DNA of 12,392 nt, from assembly GCA_003141795.1 (NCBI GenBank), contig PLNO01000118.1, forward strand, positions 1 to 12,392, given 5' to 3'. The notes below the pieces were generated by a model. The model saw only the letters and a list, made by a program, of their open reading frames with translations, was not told the origin of the DNA and did not search any database. Position 1 is the first letter of the stretch, and each line of letters starts with the position of its first letter. Shown here piece by piece: positions 1-12,392 of the stretch. Made by a program: the position numbers and the translations under genes. Origin of the DNA: Spirochaetaceae bacterium (GTDB lineage: Bacteria; Spirochaetota; Spirochaetia; SZUA-6; Fen-1364).

Positions 1-223
1 CGCCCGTGCGGGGCGCGACGGACAGAGTGCCTATGTCATGGGCAAGCACGACGAGTTTCAATCCACGCGCCCGTGCGGGGCGCGACTGGTGGCATCGGTA
101 AACTCTTTGTAAGCCTTGTCGTCGTTTCAATCCACGCGCCCGTGCGGGGCGCGACAATCATCCTGGTGGACGTTGAGGTCCAACGGCATGAGTTTCAATC
201 CACGCGCCCGTGCGGGGCGCGAC
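1..223 (-). CRISPR. Type I-C CRISPR array, leader-proximal end (partial)
   Basis: Three complete identical 32-bp repeats lie at 55-86, 124-155 and 192-223, and the last 19 bp of a fourth at 1-19. Spacers are 20-54 (35 bp), 87-123 (37 bp) and 156-191 (36 bp). Read on the minus strand, each repeat begins GTCGCGCCC, forms a 7-bp stem CGCGCCC/GGGCGCG around a 5-nt loop, and ends TGGATTGAAAC, the classic I-C repeat tail. That orientation, and the cas2 side holding the leader, mean transcription runs right to left, so 192-223 is the first repeat and the array continues past the left edge. Cas5c should cut at the 3' base of the stem, leaving the 11-nt handle TGGATTGAAAC on each crRNA. The repeats are undegraded, which fits an active or recently active array. 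Spacer targets are unknown. Confidence 0.98.
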
Positions 224-2552: not shown

Positions 2553-3422
2553 CTATATCTTGTCGATGAGCTCTACCTTTGCGGGGACTTTGTCTTTGTG
2601 GACGAGCACCTCATAGTCCGAGAACGCCCGCGCCGGCGAGGCCGGATCATGGGTTGGCTTCACTTCGATCAGCTCGAAGAGTTTGTGCGCCGGTGAGTTG
2701 CCAAGGATCCCATCGTGTTTGAAGACAAAGAGTTTGCGCGCTACCATCTTCCCTCGTGCCGCGGAATGGTCGTGCTCGAACATGTTGATCAGGGCCTCCC
2801 AGAACAGATCCAGATCATCGGTGGAAAATCCTGTCTGTTGGGCAAGATGCCCCGAAATATAGCCTTCGGTGCGATAGAGACCGTACGGGATGACGTTCTT
2901 CCGTCCCATGGTACGGTTGTCTCCCTTTTGGCTCTTGGCTTCGGCCTCTGTTGCCACGGCCATACGGGTTATGGTGATCTCACGCGGAAGGACCGGCTCA
3001 ATGCTTTGTCCAAAATTGAGCTGAACGGGCCCGCGAACCTGCCCGCAGTTGAACTCCTTCAAAGACATTACTGCGCCGAAAGTCCTGATGTCGAAATAGT
3101 TCTTACACATCCACGCGCGTGCAGCGGGGATCTTTTCTTCTTCCCCTTTTACTCCTTCCACCTCAGGGGCGAGGTAAGCATTCTTCTGCTCCAACGTCAG
3201 GACAGCCTTTTCGCGCACATAGATGAGGTTGGGGGCTTTCTTGCCCTTTATGATTTCGACGTAGTTCCTGATCTTTCTCTTGAGACAAACATCGGTGACA
3301 ATCCCATGATTGGTCTCGGGATCTATGCGCGGAAGGTTTCCCGCATCGGGATCTCCGTTAGGATTGCCATTCTCGACATCGAAAAGATACACGAACTCAT
3401 AACGATTCTTCAGTTCAGACAT
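2553..3422 (-). CDS. cas7: Cascade backbone subunit Cas7c (Csd2)
   Basis: Cas7c is the repeated backbone subunit of Cascade/I-C that coats the crRNA and displaces every sixth nucleotide. The 289-residue product has the usual length and the family signatures NGNPNGDPDAG (residues 18-28), FDIRTFGAVMS, and RTMGRKNVIPYGLY. The ATG at 3422 is preceded by AGGAGG at a 7-nt spacing. The gene lies 42 bp downstream of cas8c and 131 bp upstream of cas4. The protein appears complete and undisturbed. Confidence 0.97.
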   Translation of the reverse strand: MSELKNRYEFVYLFDVENGNPNGDPDAGNLPRIDPETNHGIVTDVCLKRKIRNYVEIIKGKKAPNLIYVREKAVLTLEQKNAYLAPEVEGVKGEEEKIPAARAWMCKNYFDIRTFGAVMSLKEFNCGQVRGPVQLNFGQSIEPVLPREITITRMAVATEAEAKSQKGDNRTMGRKNVIPYGLYRTEGYISGHLAQQTGFSTDDLDLFWEALINMFEHDHSAARGKMVARKLFVFKHDGILGNSPAHKLFELIEVKPTHDPASPARAFSDYEVLVHKDKVPAKVELIDKI

Positions 3423-3464: not shown

Positions 3465-3842
3465 TCAGGCGACCGTGTCCTTCGTTTCCTTTTTGGTGAA
3501 GAATGCTTTGCGTTGATGGTAATAACCCAAGGCGAACATTCCTTGGTCTTCCAGATTCAGATGAGCCGGAAATCCTTTGGCGGGATCGATTCCTTCCAGA
3601 ATCGACTGGATGAGTTGTTCTTTATGGATTTTAGGTCCTGTGTCCAGTTTCGCGAGGTGATGCTGCGATAATCGAATGAGTTGTGGGAAGACAACGCTTG
3701 GTGTCGCCGACGCAGCACCAAAGAACCTGTCTTTGATTGTTGCGTTGGCCCCAGGTATTGCCTCTTCTTGTGCCTTCTCGAGGACAGCGAAAAGCCGTCC
3801 CAGTCGATAAGCAATGCTGGTGGAGTTCTCATTCAGAGCCAT
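3465..3842 (-). CDS. cas11: Cascade small subunit Cas11c, internal translation within cas8c
   Basis: Subtype I-C has no separate small-subunit gene; the small subunit is known to be made from an internal start in the 3' part of cas8c. Here an ATG at 3842, in frame with cas8c codon 450, is preceded by AAGGAGGTGA (3854-3845) at a 5-nt spacing from GGAGG, a near-ideal ribosome site in the middle of a coding sequence. The product is 125 residues, starts [20 protein letters not shown] and is mainly helical in appearance, as expected of Cas11. The CAAGGAGGTG stretch is identical to that in front of cas8c itself. Several copies per complex would bind along the Cas7 backbone and stabilise the non-target strand. 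The function is inferred from position, size and family precedent. Confidence 0.88.
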   Translation of the reverse strand: MALNENSTSIAYRLGRLFAVLEKAQEEAIPGANATIKDRFFGAASATPSVVFPQLIRLSQHHLAKLDTGPKIHKEQLIQSILEGIDPAKGFPAHLNLEDQGMFALGYYHQRKAFFTKKETKDTVA

Positions 3843-5189
3843 TGTCACCTCCTTGTTTCTGTAATTCCTCGTCAACACACCCTTGATCAATGCAGCGCGG
3901 CAGTAAGTGATATCGTGATCCGCTCGTATGCGCTCGATCACTTCAGCGAGGAGCGATGTTGGATAGGGAATACCTTCCATTACCGAGCGCATCATTGCGC
4001 CGGCGAGAGTCGGATTAATGTTCTCACTCTTTCCCAGCAGAGCGGTTTCAATGAGCAATTGCCAGATGCCAGGAAAGATCGGTTGATTATCGAATTCTCT
4101 TATGATTTCGATGTCAGCGAAGTGACTGCCGATATGCCTGTTGAGAGCCGCGACAGTATCGACATACCAGAAACGCACTGCAACCCTTGACGCATTCGGT
4201 GCAAGCCCGAGGATGTAGAAACGCATGGAATCGTCTGGGACCATCGCCGGCTTGGTCCCTTGCCGCACAGAGCTGAGATAGTCGTTGATTTTCTTTGCGT
4301 CAGCAGCGTCAACCGCTGCGTCTCTGCGGGGGTCGAGAATATTGCCCATAAAATCTTCTATTGGGGAAGATCGCTCCGTCCAAAAAACGGTGGTTGCATC
4401 TCCGATCTGCACCTTCTGGTGTGAATCGAACCGAAGAAGGTAATTGAGCGCTGTCGTGTATGCAAATGCCGCTCGCTGACTTACTGGCGCGTTGAGGTTC
4501 TGCTCCTTTCCATACGAACGGAAAGCATCGAGATTGAAAGACACCAGGGAGGCGCCCATTGTCTGCGCATCCTTGATGCCCTTGATCTTTGGGTGCAGGA
4601 CCGCAATAGGTGCTCTTTCTCCTGTGACGAGGCACACGCCTTGCGCACCATCTGCCGAAAGGCTTTTGTGTTCGTTCCACGCGGACACCACCGCCTCGCG
4701 TTGGTGGACAAAGCGGTGTTCCCGATCTAGACGAAAAACGAGGTTTTGGCCGACCATCTCATCCCATGGAAAATCCTTCGGTCGCTTCGTGGGATTCCAG
4801 GTATCGAGGAATCGCAGAACCGCGATCATGCCTGCATCCTTCAGCTTTTCGCCGACTTCGTGCTGGTGTCGCCTGAACTCTTCGAAAGTTTTGATACTTC
4901 TTTCCGGTTTTCCCTTTTCATCAAGGCCCAGTACGTATCCGGTGTTGTCCCACATAAAATTGGACGCAACCCCGGACGCGCGAATGACCGCCTCTGGGAC
5001 CATTATGGGCACCGGGCGTGGCTTCTTTCCGGACGTGTCACGAATGTCCTGGATATCAACAAGCGTCCCTTCTTTATCAATGACGAGTGCAAAAGAGATG
5101 CTTTGCGGGCCGAATCCTGGTAGGGCAATACCAGACTCGGGGGTATTTCTTAGGCGTTCATAATACTCGTACAGTGCCTGCAGAATCAT
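3465..5189 (-). CDS. cas8c: Cascade large subunit Cas8c (Csd1)
   Basis: Cas8c is the large subunit that recognises the PAM and recruits Cas3. The 574-residue protein starts [15 protein letters not shown], the typical Csd1 N-terminus. The frame is open to an ATG at 5303, but the ATG at 5189 has AAGGAGG (5203-5197) at the right distance and overlaps the cas5 stop by 4 bp (ATGA), so I choose it. Recognisable Csd1 stretches include [20 protein letters not shown] near the N-terminus and the C-terminal helical part that doubles as Cas11c. Length is within the family range and no frameshift is seen. Confidence 0.95.
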
Positions 5190-5878
5190 TTCCGCACCTC
5201 CTTGCTTTCGAAGGAAGGCACTTCTATTACTCCGTGCCGCATATACGCGTGAAAGAATCGGGGCTCCATATCGTTCCTGAAGTCGATGTCGTGCAGCATC
5301 CACCCCAGATCGCGGTCTTCTTTGATTGGCGAAGGCAGGATGGCGTCTTTATCGATCCAATCAAAGCTCGCGGGGAACTCACGCGTGCCAAAATACGGCT
5401 GATTGAAACACTGGCCTGCCTCAGCCCGGCGCATGAAAATCTCGTAGTGCTTGCCCGGTTCCCGGTCGTGCGGATCAGGGACGCCATTCTTCTCGACCGT
5501 TCCCGCCCTGTCGGTAATATCGAAGGCGGCCTCAATGACATAGTCGACGTCCTCGAGTACCATTGCTGCTCGTTGCTGTCGATCCTCCTCGATGTAAGTT
5601 CCCAGCGGTGACGTCTGATCCTGCATAGCTCTCTGTACGTTTCTCAGAGGGATCTTTGAGGCGAGCTCATTTCTTCTGATATTGGTAAATCGAATGGGTG
5701 CGAGCACGTGAATGCGCTCGATCCGCCAACGAATGGCTGGCTTCCAGTAAATGGCCTCAAGAATTCCGCGCGCCGCCGAGGGAGTCGGGACATCGTAGCT
5801 TACCCGCTCCACTTTCATCTCTGGGCGGGTGAAGCATGCGTACCGTCCCCAGACATGCAGTGCGATACCGTGTGCCAT
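5186..5878 (-). CDS. cas5: Cas5c (Cas5d), crRNA-processing Cascade subunit
   Basis: In subtype I-C, which lacks Cas6, Cas5 is the endoribonuclease that cuts the repeat at the 3' base of its hairpin and then holds the 5' handle. The 230-residue protein has the glycine-rich N-terminal Cas5 strand and the family stretch [21 protein letters not shown]44, K143 and H144 correspond in context to the Tyr-Lys-His catalytic set described for Bacillus halodurans Cas5d, so processing activity is expected. The ATG at 5878 has AAAGGAGC upstream. It is 12 bp downstream of cas3 and overlaps cas8c by 4 bp. The same enzyme should also process the repeat-like RNA at 8434-8458. Confidence 0.96.
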
Positions 5879-5890
5879 CTCTTGCTCCTT

Positions 5891-8131
5891 TCAGATTACG
5901 AGGCCATCGGGGTCGTTGAAGTCCCTGTCGGTGGGGTTGAGACCGAAATCCTCGTCATAAGCATTCTTCATTCCGGAGTCTGTGAGGACGTAGTACCGAC
6001 TGTCTTGAAGCGCTTCGACGTCGCCAGCTTCAACGAGTTTCGCCAACGCTCCCGGATAGCCTTGGACGGTGTATGGCTGCAACTCGCGCAACAAGTGGCC
6101 CGGGCTTTTGTTCCACCGAAGCTGTTCGCAGAGTTCTCTTGCGTTGTCGTCAAGAGGCACCACGACGGGAATTTGTGCATCAGGGATCAAACGATACAGT
6201 TCCGCCACCTTTCTGAAAGGGAAATCTCCGTTCATGGCTGCGGATACGAACAGCGACATGATCCCTGGTGAATCCAGTCCCCCTCCTTGATCTTTCATCC
6301 AATACATTTCCTTGAAATAGGCGTGTACTGTTTCCGAGTCCAAGATGCGCCCTCCGTGCTCGCGCAGAACGAGCTCCGCAGTCTGCGCGCTTTGCCGGAA
6401 ATGACCGGCGGGTAACCCATCTTCCGGAGTAAAGACGTAGAGCGCACCGCCCGTCGCGATTCGACCCTCTCGATTACATCGCCCTGCCGCCTGCACGAGT
6501 GAATCGATCCCGGCCATGGCCCTGAATACGACGGGGAAATCCAGATCAACTCCGGCTTCGACGAGTTGGGTGCTGATAACACGACAAGGCTTCCCTTCGC
6601 TGAGTCTTTTACGGATACTATCTGGCTCAAGGTCCTTCAAGTTCCCGAGCACTCTGGACCGATGCACCGGGCACATCGCAGCAGAGAGGTGAAAAATGCC
6701 GGCCTCGCCGTGCAGGGCCTGGAATAACTCTCGTGCGTGCCTCTTTGTGTTGACGATGCAGAGGCAGCGCTCTTCTTTCCTTATCCGGCTCACCAACTCA
6801 ATGTTGGTTATTGTTCCCAAGTCTGTCTCGTGCACCCGCCTGAATGCTTTTTCGAGATCGAGCGGGGCGCTCATCATTTCCCGTGCCCCCGTGAGACCGC
6901 TCTTGAACTCTTCATCGGCCATGAGTGCGGGCTGTGTGGCCGTGCACAAGACGATGCTCGATCGATAGTGCGTGACCAGTTCTCGAATCACCCCAAGAGT
7001 GGGCTTTAAGAGAGAAACGGGGAGCATTTGAGCCTCGTCGAGGATGACAACGCTTTCCGCCACACTATGAAGCTTGCGTGTCTTGGATGATCTGTTCGCG
7101 AAAAATGATTCAAAGAATTGGACATTCGTGGTGACGACGATCGGTGCATCCCAGTTCTCGGCCGCCAATCGACGTCGTTCTTCCGCATCATCGTCATCCG
7201 TCTGATCTTTCTCCTGGATGAAGTTCGAGTGATGTTCGAGGACGGCCTCAGCGCCGAACACGTCTCTGAATACCTTCGCGGTCTGCTCGATGATGCTTGT
7301 ATAGGGGATGACATAGATGACGCGCTGAAGGCCGTGGAGTAGCGCGTGTCGAAGAGCAAAAGCCATAGAAGAAAGCGTCTTGCCTCCACCGGTAGGTACG
7401 GTAAGAGAGAAAAGGCCTGGAGATTGCTGCGCGGCCGTCTGACATTCCGCGAGAATGCGCGCTCGGAGTTGATTTACATCAGTGGGCTTGGCCTCTTCCG
7501 CCATGTCACGCAGATGTTTGTCGAGCAAGGGGGATAGATCGTTCAATGCCGGACCTTGCCCCCGCTTTGCTTTGTTTTGTGGATCAAAGAAAGCCTCTGT
7601 ATCGAGGAAGTCTGCATCGACGAGGCAGGAATACATCATTCGAGTAAAGAACGCCGCGCTGAAGCCCCGGTTCTCCGGAGACGACGGGGGTCGATCTATT
7701 GGCGGCGTTTCAAGGGATTGAGGGAGCTCATCTGATAGGTAGCCATTGCTGTTATTTGATCGGGCGAGCCGCCGTTCCAGGCAGCTCTCCTCTCCTCCCT
7801 CGTTTCCATTCGGTAACCCCGAATGATGCCCCGCCACGCAGTAAGCGATCAACTTCCCGAACCCTTTGGGTGCTTTGAGCTTTTCTACCGCATATTTTGC
7901 CCCCGGTGTCGAATGGTCGACCCTGATGTTTGCACCTCTGATCCGCCTCTGAAATTCGGGCGATTCCTTGCCATCGTCGTGCAGCAGTCCAACCGCTTTG
8001 CCCCAGTTCTCGGCACCGAATGCGGCCGCGAACTCTGAGGCTTTTTGTGCGACATTGCGAAGATGTTCAGAAAGCGTCTGGACTTGCCCATCCTCCGAGA
8101 GGTGGGCAATGATTGAATCTGGTGGGATCAT
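5891..8131 (-). CDS. cas3: Cas3 HD nuclease-helicase (type I-C)
   Basis: Cas3 is recruited by target-bound Cascade and unwinds and shreds the non-target strand. The 746-residue protein has an N-terminal HD nuclease with H23, H51-D52 (LLHDDGK), H73 and H102-H103, ending near the YSCLVDADFLDTE segment (about 167-179). The SF2 helicase follows, with Walker A PTGGGKT (246-252), Walker B DEAQ (365-368), TAT motif III (397-399) and motif VI QAAGRCNREGR. All key residues are present. The ATG at 8131 is preceded by AGAAGG. It is the first established gene of the operon, about 230 nt downstream of the predicted promoter. Confidence 0.97.
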   Translation of the reverse strand: MIPPDSIIAHLSEDGQVQTLSEHLRNVAQKASEFAAAFGAENWGKAVGLLHDDGKESPEFQRRIRGANIRVDHSTPGAKYAVEKLKAPKGFGKLIAYCVAGHHSGLPNGNEGGEESCLERRLARSNNSNGYLSDELPQSLETPPIDRPPSSPENRGFSAAFFTRMMYSCLVDADFLDTEAFFDPQNKAKRGQGPALNDLSPLLDKHLRDMAEEAKPTDVNQLRARILAECQTAAQQSPGLFSLTVPTGGGKTLSSMAFALRHALLHGLQRVIYVIPYTSIIEQTAKVFRDVFGAEAVLEHHSNFIQEKDQTDDDDAEERRRLAAENWDAPIVVTTNVQFFESFFANRSSKTRKLHSVAESVVILDEAQMLPVSLLKPTLGVIRELVTHYRSSIVLCTATQPALMADEEFKSGLTGAREMMSAPLDLEKAFRRVHETDLGTITNIELVSRIRKEERCLCIVNTKRHARELFQALHGEAGIFHLSAAMCPVHRSRVLGNLKDLEPDSIRKRLSEGKPCRVISTQLVEAGVDLDFPVVFRAMAGIDSLVQAAGRCNREGRIATGGALYVFTPEDGLPAGHFRQSAQTAELVLREHGGRILDSETVHAYFKEMYWMKDQGGGLDSPGIMSLFVSAAMNGDFPFRKVAELYRLIPDAQIPVVVPLDDNARELCEQLRWNKSPGHLLRELQPYTVQGYPGALAKLVEAGDVEALQDSRYYVLTDSGMKNAYDEDFGLNPTDRDFNDPDGLVI

Positions 8132-8358
8132 GGCGTGCCTTCTTGGTGTTTTGACGCGCGAACAACAAATGAATGCTTTTCGTGGACCGAGATTCGGAAC
8201 GGAGCGATCTTTACCCTAATGGTTTGCTTAAAACGAAAGATGAGTCTTGGCGTAAAGATATGGCGTAGCCGCAAAACCACGCCATATAGTTTATGGGGAA
8301 GGAGTACATTGGGACGCGAGTACGTCGGGTGCCTCACGAAGCTATATTTCTCTATCAT
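8128..8358 (-). CDS. Possible leaderless small ORF ahead of cas3 (doubtful)
   Basis: An ATG at 8358 lies 7 nt past the predicted -10 box, so the transcript could begin at or next to this codon (leaderless). The frame then stays open for 76 codons and ends with a TGA that overlaps the cas3 ATG by 4 bp, the coupling used elsewhere in this operon. The predicted peptide is rich in Arg, Lys, His and Phe and resembles no family I know. Against it, there is no ribosome site, and the same frame remains open upstream through the promoter to 8631, so the openness may be chance. It is listed because of the stop/start overlap. Confidence 0.2.
   Translation of the reverse strand: MIEKYSFVRHPTYSRPNVLLPHKLYGVVLRLRHIFTPRLIFRFKQTIRVKIAPFRISVHEKHSFVVRASKHQEGTP
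8258..8287. promoter_or_regulatory. 9-bp inverted repeat in the cas3 5' untranslated region
   Basis: ATATGGCGT (8258-8266) and ACGCCATAT (8279-8287) are perfect inverted copies separated by 12 bp, with arm centres 21 bp apart, two helical turns. This geometry suits a dimeric DNA-binding protein, for example the WYL regulator encoded nearby. As RNA it would form a hairpin in the cas3 leader, about 70 nt into the transcript. Neither role is proven. The palindrome at 9924-9944 ahead of the WYL gene has a different sequence, so a shared operator is not evident. Confidence 0.6.
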
Positions 8359-8365
8359 ATGCTTT

Positions 8366-8394
8366 ATCATAGCATAAGTTAGAATGAAATGCAA
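8366..8394 (-). promoter_or_regulatory. Predicted promoter of the cas operon
   Basis: On the minus strand TTGCAT (8394-8389) is followed after exactly 17 bp by TATGAT (8371-8366, 5 of 6 to TATAAT), with a TG one base upstream, making an extended -10. Transcription would start near 8359 and run into cas3. The surrounding AT-rich island contrasts with the GC-rich genes. The spacer-like part of the adjacent crRNA-like element is complementary to exactly this promoter, which independently supports its being functional. Confidence 0.7.
8368..8388 (-). promoter_or_regulatory. Self-target of the crRNA-like RNA: PAM plus pseudo-protospacer
   Basis: Read on the minus strand, TTC (8388-8386), the usual type I-C PAM, is followed by ATTCTAACTTATGCTATG (8385-8368). 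This agrees with the spacer-like stretch at 8459-8476 at positions 1-5, 7-10 and 13-18. Mismatches are at 6, 11 and 12; type I guides do not pair at positions 6 and 12. The site fills the space between the -35 and -10 boxes and covers half of the -10. Bound Cascade would block RNA polymerase, and pairing that stops near position 18 would be expected not to license Cas3 cutting. Confidence 0.82.
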
Positions 8395-8431
8395 CACCTT
8401 TTCACTATTCTGATTTCTTGATAAACTGATT

Positions 8432-8514
8432 ATGTCAGCTGATGCTGTGGGTTGAAACATTCTTACTTGGGCTATGGCGGCTCGGCCGGTTATTGATCGT
8501 GTCGAGCCGGCCGA
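8432..8514 (+). ncRNA. CreR-like crRNA-mimicking regulatory RNA (degenerate repeat, pseudo-spacer, 3' hairpin)
   Basis: The plus strand at 8434-8458 resembles one shortened array repeat. It begins GTC, forms a 4-bp stem CAGC/GCTG (8436-8439/8444-8447), and ends TGGGTTGAAAC, which differs from the true handle TGGATTGAAAC at one base. The handle starts immediately after the stem, where Cas5c cuts. The next 18 nt (8459-8476), ATTCTTACTTGGGCTATG, target the cas promoter 70-90 bp away with a correct PAM. A GC-rich hairpin follows, either CGGCTCG/CGAGCCG (8478-8484/8503-8509) or TCGGCCGG/CCGGCCGA (8482-8489/8507-8514), and may form the 3' end. A weak promoter is possible: GATAAA at 8420-8425, with TTTTCA 15 bp upstream. 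Cas-regulating RNAs of this design (CreR) are known in other CRISPR subtypes. The role here and the RNA ends are inferred; a CreTA antitoxin is the alternative. Confidence 0.78.
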
Positions 8515-8734
8515 TCCGGGGGTTGCCTTGTGTGGAGTGGCCATGTCCATGACGGTGCAACACTCCGCTGATTCCGCAAGGGTTTTCGAAATCCCGACTC
8601 TGCTGTTAGTTTTCATATATGCACGATTCAATGGTTCCTATCGTGTACCGACAAATGACTCCTTGGTGGGAGTTTGCGCTTTCATGTGCCGGAGTTGAAA
8701 TGGCGATACTCGGCACCATCCCTCCGTTTTGGGC
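8515..8734. other. Intergenic stretch without recognisable gene
   Basis: I find no convincing coding frame here. Short open frames on both strands lack ribosome sites and family resemblance. The stretch lies between the 3' hairpin of the crRNA-like element and the end of recognisable similarity in the cas3 relic, so it may be decayed or rearranged DNA. A dyad GTGCCG (8689-8694) / CGGCAC (8710-8715) flanks a weakly handle-like GTTGAAAT on the plus strand; I do not count it as a second repeat. Confidence 0.5.
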
Positions 8735-8899: not shown

Positions 8900-9886
8900 T
8901 CATTTTTCCACGATGTACAGCTCCGCCATCGCTCGTGCCTCTTCGGCAATGCGTTGCCGAAGTTCGGCGGGCGCAAGCACTTCCACGTCGGCTCCCCAGC
9001 CGCGGATCCAGGGAACCATCTCGCGCGGCTCGGCGATGTGGGCGCGCCAGATGAGCTTGCCACCGGGAAGATCAGTCAGGTCCTGGCTGGCATGCCAGAC
9101 CGTCTCGCGCACCCTGTGGGCCACCTGCGCGGAGAAGCGCAGCACGACGTCCACGGGCTCGGCGTCGGAGTACCAGATGCCCCAGGCGTTTTCCAACATG
9201 CGGGCGATCTTCTCGTCGTGGGGGATCGTGTACGTGTCAGTCGTGAGGGTCGCCTGGAGGATCCTGTCGATGCGCAGCGTACGCAGATGCTTCTCGCCGG
9301 CGCATTGGCCTATGGCCTGAACGGTCTGTCCGACGGCGTAGGGAACGATGAGGTAAACGGCGAAGTGGTAGACGTCATCGGCGTTCCGATGGGCCGAGTG
9401 ATGAAGCAGTTCCACCGTTCTCCCTTCCGACCATCCGCGCGTGAGTGTTTCAAGGACGCTGAGATACACCGGATCGCGTCGAGCCCGCGAGCCCTCGACC
9501 TTTTCGGCCTCGGCGACGATGTGATCCGCGATGGTGGGAGAAAATGCCTGCAGCGACTGGCCGAGCTTCCTCAACGCCGATGCCGCATGGGGATTGAATC
9601 GGTCCATCCGATCCGCCATGAGCCGGCTTGCGAGGTACAGCGATAGTGACTCGTGGATGGTGAGGCGGATGTGGCCGAGGTAGCTGTCTCGATTGATGCC
9701 GATCAAGCCGTGGTCATCTTCGTTGACCGGTAGGAACGAGCTGAGCTCCGTGACGTACCGGGCCGCGGTGGATCTGTGCACTCCGAGCCGTCGCGCGATT
9801 TCAGACCTGTGCAGGCCCCGCGGATGCGCCAGGAGCAAATGCTCGAGTTGAATGAGACGTTCTGACTTCGTTGTTGCGGCTACCAT
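8900..9886 (-). CDS. WYL-domain HTH transcriptional regulator
   Basis: The 328-residue protein has an N-terminal winged HTH (about residues 8-48, GLHRSEIARRLGVHRSTAARYV). A WYL-type ligand-binding domain follows (about 140-210, ending LRTLRIDRI), then a C-terminal WCX-like extension (about 243-325, with WIRGWGADVEVLAPAELR). The Trp-Tyr-Leu triplet itself is replaced by other residues around TVQAIG, while the RTLRIDRI tail is retained. Such regulators sense nucleic acid or nucleotide signals and commonly control CRISPR, BREX and CBASS loci. Position upstream of and co-directional with cas3 and its relic suggests control of this locus. No clear ribosome site decides the start; a GTG at 9898 adds four residues. 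Confidence 0.9.
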   Translation of the reverse strand: MVAATTKSERLIQLEHLLLAHPRGLHRSEIARRLGVHRSTAARYVTELSSFLPVNEDDHGLIGINRDSYLGHIRLTIHESLSLYLASRLMADRMDRFNPHAASALRKLGQSLQAFSPTIADHIVAEAEKVEGSRARRDPVYLSVLETLTRGWSEGRTVELLHHSAHRNADDVYHFAVYLIVPYAVGQTVQAIGQCAGEKHLRTLRIDRILQATLTTDTYTIPHDEKIARMLENAWGIWYSDAEPVDVVLRFSAQVAHRVRETVWHASQDLTDLPGGKLIWRAHIAEPREMVPWIRGWGADVEVLAPAELRQRIAEEARAMAELYIVEK

Positions 9887-9923
9887 TTGGAAGGCCACTA
9901 TTTACATTCACATTATCGTCCCG

Positions 9924-10037: not shown

Positions 10038-11345
10038 TCACGAACGCGGTATTTCCATCCGATGGTTGCGCTGGATGAGCGTGCGCCACTGGCCCGGCAC
10101 ATGGGCCTGCTCCGCGTAGTCAGGCCACCGCGCCACGGCGGCGCGCACTTCGTCCACGATAGACTCCGCCCGCCCACGCTTCATCAAGGCGCTTTTGGCG
10201 CAAGCGCGGAAGTCGTCCAGCGTGAAGGCATCGCGCTTTCCGTTCATGGTCATCTGGTGGCTCGCCGTCCACGCGCCGTTCGGGTTGTAGCTGTAGGTGA
10301 GATCGAATGCCGGCGCGAGGGACCACTGCCCAGTCTTGTCCATCAGGAAGGCGATGTTCTTGACGTGATCGTCCTGATTGCGGGCGATGATGTTGAACGT
10401 CATGCGCCGGAATTGTTGTTCCACCGCCTCCATCGGCAGGTTGAGCTGGCGGATCGCAAGCAGCGCCTGCTCGTAGGCGTATGCACCCGCCTGGTTGAAA
10501 TCGAAATGGGCCAGGCCGCAGAGCGACTGCATGTGCAGCTTCTCGCCGCCTTCCAACCGGTCGAAGCGGCGGCTCATGAAGTGCCGCCGGCCGCTTTCTT
10601 CGAGGATGCGGCATTCGCCCATGGTCACGCCCGCGGCTTTTGCCATCAGGGAGTAGGCGTACTCCATGGCACCGAACCCCTTGGGATCTTCAAGCTCTTT
10701 GTCCTTGTTCCCCGTCACCCCGTCGAATTTCAGGATCCAGTAACCGAATCCCGTTCCCGCCGCGATTTGTCCCGAACGCACCTCGTCGGTTTGCGGGTTC
10801 CATGCAATAACCGCCTTCGCCCGTGCACCACCCGCGGAGGTGCCGACGCGCAGGATGTCATTCAAAGCGTCTTTTCTGTGCCGCTTGTCGAAGGTGACTT
10901 TCAGGTTGTTGCGCTGGCTGAGAACCTCCGAAGCCAGCCTCACCAGTGCATCGATCTCGATCTTCTTCGCCTGTCTCGGTTGTGGCCCCACGGCCGGGGC
11001 GAACTCCAGCGCTCCCATGCCACGGCGACCCGTGTAGCAGAGCCTTTCCACGGAATTGAAACTGTCAGGTGTTCGCCCTTGCGTTGCCAGCCACGCGTCG
11101 ATCAGGGCATTGCCGAACGCATCGGGCAATGAATCCGCCAACAGACCGGGCAGGCCGTGGAAGGTCCGCCGCGACAACTCGGGGAAGACGTGGACCCGAT
11201 CGTCCAGAGGGAGGGTAAGAGGAGAGACCTGGATTCCGCTGCGGACAAAGGCTGGATCGTACTGGAACGCCGCGAAGGCTTCACCGTCCTCCAATGAGAC
11301 GGCCCCGATGGTCCGCCCCCAGAGCCGCACTTCTGCCAGCGTCAC
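10038..11345 (-). CDS. hipA: HipA-type serine/threonine kinase toxin
   Basis: HipA toxins phosphorylate a cellular target (glutamyl-tRNA synthetase in E. coli) and slow growth. The 435-residue protein has the family length and both HipA domains. S170 in GTSAGGARAKA is the equivalent of the autophosphorylated serine loop, and K206 in WILKFD is the likely ATP lysine. The catalytic motif N323-x-D325-x-H327-x-K329-N330 is intact, and D348 in APAFDLT is the metal ligand. The toxin therefore looks active. The GTG start at 11345 overlaps the hipB stop by 4 bp, with GGGGAGATGA as ribosome site. The gene ends 139 bp before the WYL gene. Confidence 0.95.
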   Translation of the reverse strand: MTLAEVRLWGRTIGAVSLEDGEAFAAFQYDPAFVRSGIQVSPLTLPLDDRVHVFPELSRRTFHGLPGLLADSLPDAFGNALIDAWLATQGRTPDSFNSVERLCYTGRRGMGALEFAPAVGPQPRQAKKIEIDALVRLASEVLSQRNNLKVTFDKRHRKDALNDILRVGTSAGGARAKAVIAWNPQTDEVRSGQIAAGTGFGYWILKFDGVTGNKDKELEDPKGFGAMEYAYSLMAKAAGVTMGECRILEESGRRHFMSRRFDRLEGGEKLHMQSLCGLAHFDFNQAGAYAYEQALLAIRQLNLPMEAVEQQFRRMTFNIIARNQDDHVKNIAFLMDKTGQWSLAPAFDLTYSYNPNGAWTASHQMTMNGKRDAFTLDDFRACAKSALMKRGRAESIVDEVRAAVARWPDYAEQAHVPGQWRTLIQRNHRMEIPRS

Positions 11346-11695
11346 GGCTCATCTCCCCACGTCCACTTTCGGGACTGAGGCTTTATCGCCTTGGCTGCGG
11401 AGGCTCGCCGACGTCTCTTCCCGCCAAGCTTCAATCGTTCGATCGGGCTCGACACAGGTTCCGGGACGAGGAGGTCGAAATGCTCGATGAGGCCGAGAGC
11501 CCGGCAGATCCGAATGAAGCCCGACATCTGCGTTGCCACCCCGCCCGATTCCAGTCGTTCGACGGTGCGCTTTGAGATGCCCGCCTGCTCCGCCAGTTGA
11601 GCCTGCGTGAGGTTTTGTTCCAATCTGAGCCTGGCAAGCCGGCCGCCAAGCTCAGTGAGAACAGCTTCGTCCGTGGCTTGTTTCACAATCTTCAT
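11342..11695 (-). CDS. hipB: HipB-type Xre antitoxin and autorepressor
   Basis: The 117-residue protein carries a Cro/C1 HTH (about residues 17-70, LTQAQLAEQAGISKRTVERLESG) and a basic C-terminal tail (KRRRRASAAKAIKPQSRKW). HipB neutralises HipA and the complex represses the operon. The antitoxin gene comes first and is translationally coupled to hipA (GTGA). It is somewhat longer than E. coli HipB because of the C-terminal tail, which could contact HipA. The ATG at 11695 has no strong ribosome site, so translation may depend on a very short leader. Confidence 0.93.
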   Translation of the reverse strand: MKIVKQATDEAVLTELGGRLARLRLEQNLTQAQLAEQAGISKRTVERLESGGVATQMSGFIRICRALGLIEHFDLLVPEPVSSPIERLKLGGKRRRRASAAKAIKPQSRKWTWGDEP

Positions 11696-11806: not shown

Positions 11807-12392
11807 CTACGTCACGTCGACGAGCTCGATCCCCGTCAGCCGGGCAAAAGCCTTCCACCGACCCATCACGTCACCGAGGTTCAGAACCTGATGATGGGTT
11901 CCCGCGTTCTCGAGCCACAGGTCGGCCGTCTCCTCGATGGTCTTTGTTTTCGGGCGCAGGAAGAAGTACGGCATCTCGATGTTCGGCAATTCCCGCTCGT
12001 CGAGGATGGTCCCCTGCATGCCGACCAGGCGGAAGTGGCCCGAGCCGACATTGGCAAGCGATACGAGCGAAGCGGGCCCGGGCTGCGCGCTGAAGAGCAC
12101 CGTCGGGGGATCACCGAGCCCCCCGATCCGCAGCTCCCGTTTGATGAGTCGCGGCTTGCGGTCGTGGCGGGAGACTTTCCAGTTGCCCTCTCCCATGTGG
12201 CTCATGAGGATCGCGTTGCGGTCATAATCCATGGCGTACATCTCCGTGAAGTGCGCGTCCCCCGCCAGGGTGTGTCCCGCAACCATGAGGCTCGAGCACA
12301 GCACGTCGCCTTCCGCCGCGTAGCCGAAACCCTCGGCCATGAGGTTTGACGCTGCCAGCATGTGGATCTGCTCGAAGCGCCCGTCGTCCGCC
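11807..12392 (-). CDS. L-arabinose/L-fucose isomerase-family protein, C-terminal part (partial)
   Basis: The frame is open to the right edge, so the gene starts outside the window; about 194 C-terminal residues are present. The segment resembles the metal-binding half of L-arabinose isomerase. It shows EGFGYAAEGD, FTEMY, LMSHMGE and GTHHQV, which match in order the Glu, Glu, His and His positions that hold Mn2+ in AraA, and KPRLIKRELRIGG matches the KPRIEVHPLGIGG-like stretch. The enzyme would interconvert an aldose and a ketose in the cytoplasm. The divergence from classical AraA leaves the substrate open, hence no gene symbol. It points to sugar metabolism and probably lies outside the defence island. 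Confidence 0.8.
   Translation of the reverse strand, partial: ADDGRFEQIHMLAASNLMAEGFGYAAEGDVLCSSLMVAGHTLAGDAHFTEMYAMDYDRNAILMSHMGEGNWKVSRHDRKPRLIKRELRIGGLGDPPTVLFSAQPGPASLVSLANVGSGHFRLVGMQGTILDERELPNIEMPYFFLRPKTKTIEETADLWLENAGTHHQVLNLGDVMGRWKAFARLTGIELVDVT

Follow-up and report, generated by a model that had tools for sequence, protein, structure and literature searches.

What is a single degenerate CRISPR repeat doing outside its array, directly upstream of the cas operon of a Spirochaetaceae bacterium, and where does the sequence that follows it point? We addressed this question in a stretch of 12,392 bp (contig PLNO01000118.1), referred to below as the window, which carries a type I-C CRISPR-Cas locus.

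The cas operon lies on the minus strand and is organized in the order cas3, cas5c, cas8c, cas7, cas4, cas1 and cas2, followed by the array; the reading frames of the cas genes are open. The first gene, cas3, occupies positions 5891–8131. The cas5c gene (5186–5878), which begins 12 nt after cas3, encodes the predicted pre-crRNA endonuclease, and its product matches the solved type I-C Cas5c chains over its length (E = 6e-77 for PDB 7kha_A and 5e-77 for 8dex_A). It is followed by cas8c (csd1; 3465–5189; PF09709, E = 2e-194), whose start was judged from the open reading frame and the Pfam match, and by cas7 (csd2; 2553–3422), named from its open reading frame and operon position, plasmid matches to the same stretch being annotated as cas7c. 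Further on, we found the orfs of cas4 (1789–2538; PF01930), the true start of which is probably further in, and cas1 (761–1897; PF01867), as well as cas2 (471–758), named from its position alone. The array (1–223, minus strand) is composed of the repeat GTCGCGCCCCGCACGGGCGCGTGGATTGAAAC and is cut by the window edge. As no more than 12 nt separate cas3 from cas5c, the relevant promoter is the one upstream of cas3, and the lone repeat is located there as well.

This repeat, GTCAGCTGATGCTGTGGGTTGAAAC, was found on the plus strand at 8434–8458. It is built of GTC, AGC, TGAT, GCT, G and the 11-nt segment TGGGTTGAAAC (8448–8458), and a 4-bp stem (CAGC/GCTG) that shares bases with GTC may form. The segment resembles the 5' handle of a crRNA: it is identical to the array handle TGGATTGAAAC at 10 of 11 positions, which agrees with an earlier note, made from the DNA letters alone, that had placed it one base away from the array handle, while the preceding 21 nt agree at only three positions in an ungapped comparison. 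Cleavage by Cas5c is predicted to leave the 5' end at position 8448. The same note had described a short stem immediately before the handle. The 4-bp stem is indeed possible, but when the repeat is folded by itself, the structure of lowest energy sequesters the handle instead (-6.2 versus -4.8 kcal/mol). No second handle with one mismatch at most was detected 55–80 nt from the lone one, so that the element does not lie between two array repeats, and an Rfam scan gave no family above its gathering score. It should be mentioned that a handle-like TAGAATGAAAT with two mismatches is present on the same strand at 8380–8390, inside the target described below and 68 nt before the lone handle, which is an array-like spacing; the best match of the bases after it is 8/15. 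A possible second repeat, GTCGAGCC, was seen by eye from position 8501.

The 18 nt behind the handle, ATTCTTACTTGGGCTATG (8459–8476, plus strand), represent a putative guide. Their unique best partner in the window is ATTCTAACTTATGCTATG on the minus strand (8368–8385), located 237–254 nt upstream of the cas3 start, with a TTC PAM directly 5' of it (8386–8388, minus strand). Guide and target are identical at 15 of 18 positions (1–5, 7–10 and 13–18), with mismatches at 6, 11 and 12; if only positions 1–17 without 6 and 12 are counted, 14 of 15 agree. This match in register with TTC had been pointed out before, and both reading and a script reproduced it. Beyond position 18 the similarity ends, 4 of the next 22 positions matching the target side. 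Such short complementarity, well below that of a full spacer, would be expected to avoid cleavage.

Could a match of this kind be accidental? We regard it as barely credible that the similarity is a product of chance or the trace of an old promoter-derived spacer without function, even though it concerns a single match of 18 nt whose length was chosen post hoc. When guides were shuffled and compared with 630 nt around the cas3 start, a region with 26 TTC sites, only one in 200,000 was as good (14/15 at positions 1–17 without 6 and 12), which bears out the claim that the match exceeds chance expectation. Likewise, among all 18-mers of both strands of the window, only the site itself (15) and the guide (14) scored above 10 of 15 against the protospacer. 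Accident is also opposed by the control with guides swapped between loci and by the pairing profile in blocks of five nucleotides, both described below.

The target is located between two promoter-like boxes of the minus strand, TTGCAT (-35; 8389–8394; 3 of 6 consensus bases) and TATGAT (-10; 8366–8371; 5 of 6), separated by 17 nt. Its place between these boxes agrees with the earlier note, but the putative promoter is weaker than the note had it: its boxes hold 8 of 12 consensus bases in total, 61% of dinucleotide shuffles of the stretch reach the same best score, and a sigma-70 and terminator scan of the stretch upstream of cas3 returned 0 sites. The leader between this promoter and cas3 (8132–8360, minus strand; about 228 nt, its start being predicted) contains no open reading frame of at least 15 codons led by a Shine-Dalgarno (SD) sequence. 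A hairpin, ATATGGCGT...ACGCCATAT, was read by eye in the leader (8255–8290, minus strand) and may be an attenuator.

To learn whether guides and upstream sites change together across type I-C loci, a check proposed in the earlier note, we assembled a comparative set. Cas3 homologs were aligned, and the best 80 genome loci among the matches listed were taken together with 5 viral loci, 2 plasmid loci and draws from different phyla (at most 30 loci each). The Cas3 proteins of the best 80 genome loci are at most 51% identical to that of the window over the best segment, so they are more distant than the close relatives with 60–80% Cas3 identity (67–79% for P0001–P0014), which entered the analysis as proteins; a scan of genome contigs with the single Cas3 protein found no relative. 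In total, 234 loci including the window were collected, 211 of them with cas3, and after removal of 14 duplicates 197 non-redundant loci remained; only identical Cas3 pieces were dropped, so that the 197 loci still include relatives, which nevertheless differ in their guides. Two regions were analyzed, the gap between cas3 and cas5 where it is at least 80 nt long (45 loci) and the 600 nt upstream of cas3 (190 loci). A sequence counted as a lone handle if it differed from TGGATTGAAA at no more than one position and had no second handle at the distance typical of arrays. A guide was scored as matching if at least 13 of 15 positions agreed, with at least 8 of 9 in the seed and a flanking TTC or TTT, a threshold set after early results had been seen.

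By this measure, 20 of the 26 near-intact lone handles are followed by a guide aimed at its own region (17 of 21 in gaps and 3 of 5 upstream of cas3). The six handles that fail belong to loci L021, L057, L062 (two), L064 and L124; the guide of L064 has a perfect seed with 11/15, and one of those in L062 reaches 10 with a seed of 8. When two handle mismatches were allowed, L033, L141 and L227 were added, giving 22 loci in total, with TTC as the PAM in 21 of them and TTT in one. The element is situated in the gap in 18 of 45 loci and upstream of cas3 in 4 of 190 (the window, L151, L157 and L227), leaving 27 gap loci and 186 upstream regions in which the same test revealed none. In L157 and L227 cas3 and cas5 are close together, as in the window, and the upstream position is rare, being found in 3 of 123 loci with this arrangement. 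Besides the window, the 22 loci belong to Desulfobacterota, Pseudomonadota, Bacillota, Verrucomicrobiota and Planctomycetota, the phylum being for some that of the central genome of the draw. Three come from cultured bacteria: Desulfonema magnum (L004), Kushneria aurantia (L023) and Candidimonas nitroreducens (L060). The gap of L049 contains two copies of one handle and guide at a distance of about 166 nt, the second preceded by N bases, and the guide match in the 600 nt upstream of cas3 in L151 is perfect (15/15) with TTT instead of TTC.

The guides vary from locus to locus, and none of the 26 near-intact ones matches another locus (0 of 6,064 swapped pairs). The co-variation check was therefore passed, with 22 of 197 loci showing guides fitted to their own region and no swapped pair doing so. 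At the same threshold, array spacers gave 0 matches in 1,203 spacer-region tests and shuffled guides 11 in 52,000. Shifting the register from -4 to +4 (first 25 handles) removed all matches except two at +2 and one at +4, which were taken to be the guide finding itself. When each of the 64 trinucleotides was used as the PAM (25 handles), only TTC exceeded single non-self matches; AAC (16) and AAT (9) reflect the handle's own end, and TAC and TTT gave one match each. A search for handles limited to the region upstream of cas3 in the loci collected first had revealed no other locus above 11/15; the pattern emerged only when the search was extended to complete loci and in particular to the gap between cas3 and cas5. 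Loose GAAAC and GAAAT handles outside the window produced 77 matches at 11/15, 10 at 12 and 3 at 13; since the counts for control handles and PAMs at 11 and 12 were similar to these or a little smaller, all were regarded as background. Promoter scores near the targets of the 22 loci averaged 7.95 compared with 7.01 after shuffling, and 0 of 100 shuffled sets scored as high.

Because the threshold had been chosen after results were seen, we also derived a pairing profile from sites selected only by TTC and guide positions 1–5, which yielded 20 sites, corresponding to 20 of the 26 guides. Comparison of these sites with their guides revealed that: (i) positions 7–11 match in 20, 19, 19, 20 and 18 of 20 cases (96 of 100 cells); (ii) positions 13–17 match in 15, 18, 18, 14 and 17 cases (82 of 100 cells); (iii) positions 6, 12 and 18 match in only 3, 4 and 6 cases; and (iv) positions after 18 are near background, except for position 21 (14 of 20). 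In the 22 pairs, matches at positions 6 and 12 number 2 and 4, compared with 4.2 and 6.1 expected; this deficit is not significant, and the two positions therefore look free rather than avoided. Position 21, past the paired stretch, agrees in 14 of 22 pairs versus 6.2 expected by composition (one-sided P = 0.0005, uncorrected).

A similar reading frame has been described for CreA, the crRNA-like RNA of the haloarchaeal CreTA system. In the passages of PMC8501985 that deal with H. hubeiense CreA, positions 6 and 12 can be changed freely and take no part in pairing, whereas a change at any one of positions 1–5 or 7–11 cost about 10^4-fold in the assay. The statement of the earlier note that type I guides do not pair at positions 6 and 12 thus fits both these accounts and the I-C profile (3 and 4 of 20). 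The I-C set shows the CreA frame with a third block of five, 13–17, added to it. The window shares with CreA the TTC PAM, the free positions and the seed blocks 1–5 and 7–11, the latter paired here except at position 11. The first repeat of CreA, as the relevant part of PMC9458426 presents it, keeps its handle while the remainder is degenerate, a state resembling that of the window repeat (10/11 in the handle, 3/21 in the rest). In contrast to CreTA, the putative promoter targeted in the window is followed by cas3, no gene for a toxin was detected, and the guide matches at positions 13–18 but not at 11.

Taken together, the own-region aim of 20 of the 26 handles, set against clean controls, and the pairing profile support a CreR-like reading of the element, and the recurrence of such guides in type I-C loci likewise speaks for the CreR-type autorepression proposed in the earlier note. 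Thus, on the basis of the sequence comparisons, we consider it likely that 8434–8476 encodes a CreR that leads Cascade to hold down its own I-C cas operon. The match, its register and PAM, the layout of the operon and the repeated occurrence of the pattern were observed; from them a chain of transcription, processing, binding and repression can be proposed. A plus-strand transcript would be cut by Cas5c after the short stem to give an RNA starting with the handle at 8448; as the system is of type I-C, this processing would be carried out by Cas5c and not by Cas6. Cas5c, Cas8c and Cas7 would assemble on this guide RNA, and the resulting Cascade would read TTC and pair guide positions 1–5, 7–10 and 13–18 with the site spanning the -35/-10 region. 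With pairing ending at position 18, Cas3 would receive no licence to cut, while access of RNA polymerase would be blocked. If Cascade were diverted by array crRNAs or anti-CRISPR proteins, expression of cas3-cas5-cas8-cas7 would be released. Since position 11 is mismatched in the window, repression might be weak unless positions 13–18 compensate.

This mismatch is peculiar to the window among the 22 loci, and it raises the question of whether the element is a fossil, that is, a once active regulatory guide now decaying. The stem of only 4 bp, which is not the best fold, and the weak promoter agree with such decay, as does the remnant adjoining the element, a broken 5' end of a second cas3 (8893–8606, minus strand). 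We nevertheless find decay improbable, given that positions 13–18 all match, that 14 of 15 informative positions have been kept while the rest of the repeat diverged, and that the cas genes are open.

The cas3 relic is most similar, among the proteins compared, to the N-terminus of the Cas3 protein P0003 (65% over 43 residues) and is located between the element and a gene for a WYL/WCX regulator near cas3 (8900–9898, minus strand). P0003 is encoded on a contig with the same reported length (3,588 nt) as that of a WYL relative, P0130. This suggests that the block with the guide and the promoter was perhaps gained by recombination and took the operon from a WYL-cas3 arrangement. WYL/WCX regulators near cas3 were also observed in L183, L186, L187, L189 and L192. 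In the draw from Chloroflexota some WYL matches belong to open frames of roughly 1,100 aa, where Cas3 follows closely on the WYL part, which suggests WYL-Cas3 fusions. Further along the window, the CRISPR locus adjoins a gene for a HipA-like protein with an HTH partner, a HipBA-type toxin-antitoxin pair (10038–11695, minus strand), beyond which lies the end of an L-arabinose isomerase gene (11807–12391).

A lone repeat outside an array may also be left by a mobile element and block Cascade by mimicry, as Racr RNAs do; one for type I-C, RacrIC1, is named in the part of PMC10651486 concerned. In the window, however, the repeat stands at the cas operon and its guide matches a site upstream of that operon, and searches of the phage and plasmid collections with the region 8132–8620 gave no match, so that a Racr origin appears very improbable.

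What does the guide regulate, the cas genes themselves or a small gene between them and the target? We looked for SD-led orfs of at least 15 aa between the target and the next cas gene in 26 loci, namely the 22 with an element and the weaker L026, L054, L062 and L064. By raw count such orfs are present in 13 of 26 loci and absent in 13. The latter are L004, L011, L025, L026 (which has a longer orf without an SD sequence by the same rule), L041, L055, L064, L141, L157, L171, L223, L227 and the window; in them the gene that follows is cas5 or cas3, in agreement with a CreR function. Among the former, L049, L054, L077, L101 and L151 have candidate SD-led orfs as well, and in eight loci a small SD-led orf is located between the target and the guide. 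In L017, L104 and L062, the last with a poorer guide match, its products are 24-aa peptides that resemble one another and may be small toxins or signals kept down by the I-C Cascade; in L033, L050, L060, L132 and L023 the products contain a hydrophobic stretch and differ in sequence. By analogy with CreTA and CrePA, the guides of about eight other loci may thus repress a small peptide gene.

Could the same apply to the window, its guide being a CreA-type antitoxin with which Cascade represses a leader toxin RNA or peptide, while the cas3 promoter lies further down? The peptide genes of these eight loci and the existence of CreTA and CrePA in other CRISPR systems lend this some weight, and the window leader does hold a 32-aa orf (8309–8211, minus strand). 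This orf lacks a Shine-Dalgarno match, however, and no SD-led orf of at least 15 aa was found between the target and cas3, although a toxin RNA would escape such a search; moreover, the guide is oriented divergently to cas3 and is placed beyond the target rather than after a toxin gene, and the scan tool found no second promoter, although it lists none at all here. We therefore regard an antitoxin role in the window as rather unlikely and repression of the cas operon as the preferred reading.

Several known systems share the principle. CreR is given for types I-B, I-E and V-A in the pertinent part of a 2026 review (PMC13131331), and a passage of PMC12737573 words its scope as 'Type I and Type V-A'; among the matches listed, no title or abstract opening reports it in type I-C. 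Like CreR, the window element consists of a lone degenerate repeat by the cas genes, a partly complementary guide and a putative cas promoter region with a PAM; unlike CreR, it belongs to type I-C, and pairing in the I-C set falls into three blocks of five. In our judgement, the principle is the same, while the subtype, the predicted processing enzyme and the three-block pairing rule are different. In CrePA, as presented in section 3.3 of PMC12737573, a KilA-N protein toxin is repressed by a crRNA-like CreA. A CRISPR effector thus acts with a crRNA-like RNA at a promoter, as proposed for the window, but the window contains no KilA-N toxin, and small peptide orfs occur only in the other I-C loci.

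The original paper on CreR is reportedly Liu 2023. Shmakov 2023 (Nucleic Acids Res.) is said to have described standalone repeats and mini-arrays of type I loci whose spacers show partial complementarity to the promoters of cas genes, and Workman 2021 the tracr-L of type II-A, a built-in RNA that reportedly turns Cas9 on its own promoter. The latter resembles the window in that an effector acts on its own promoter, while its parts, Cas9 and a tracrRNA, are unrelated.

On balance, it seems probable that type I-C systems of several phyla share a Cas6-less guide layer, made by Cas5c, fitted to each promoter and read in three blocks of five (positions 1–5, 7–11 and 13–17, with 6, 12 and 18 free), which would serve two uses, a throttle on the cas genes, as in the window, and the holding down of a small SD-led peptide gene elsewhere. 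If the first holds, the Cas6-less type I-C would join the subtypes that sense the supply of free Cascade by a built-in guide, and cas expression would be under feedback from both the crRNA load and attack by anti-CRISPRs. If the second holds, the peptide gene of the other loci would poison or signal when Cascade fails. The profile of five, five and five would provide a simple rule for finding such guides, and natural sequence would reveal through it the positions that the type I-C effector does not read. Gene regulation by Cascade would then become a question to be put locus by locus, each with a predicted RNA and a predicted site, and the cultured hosts would make such work practical.
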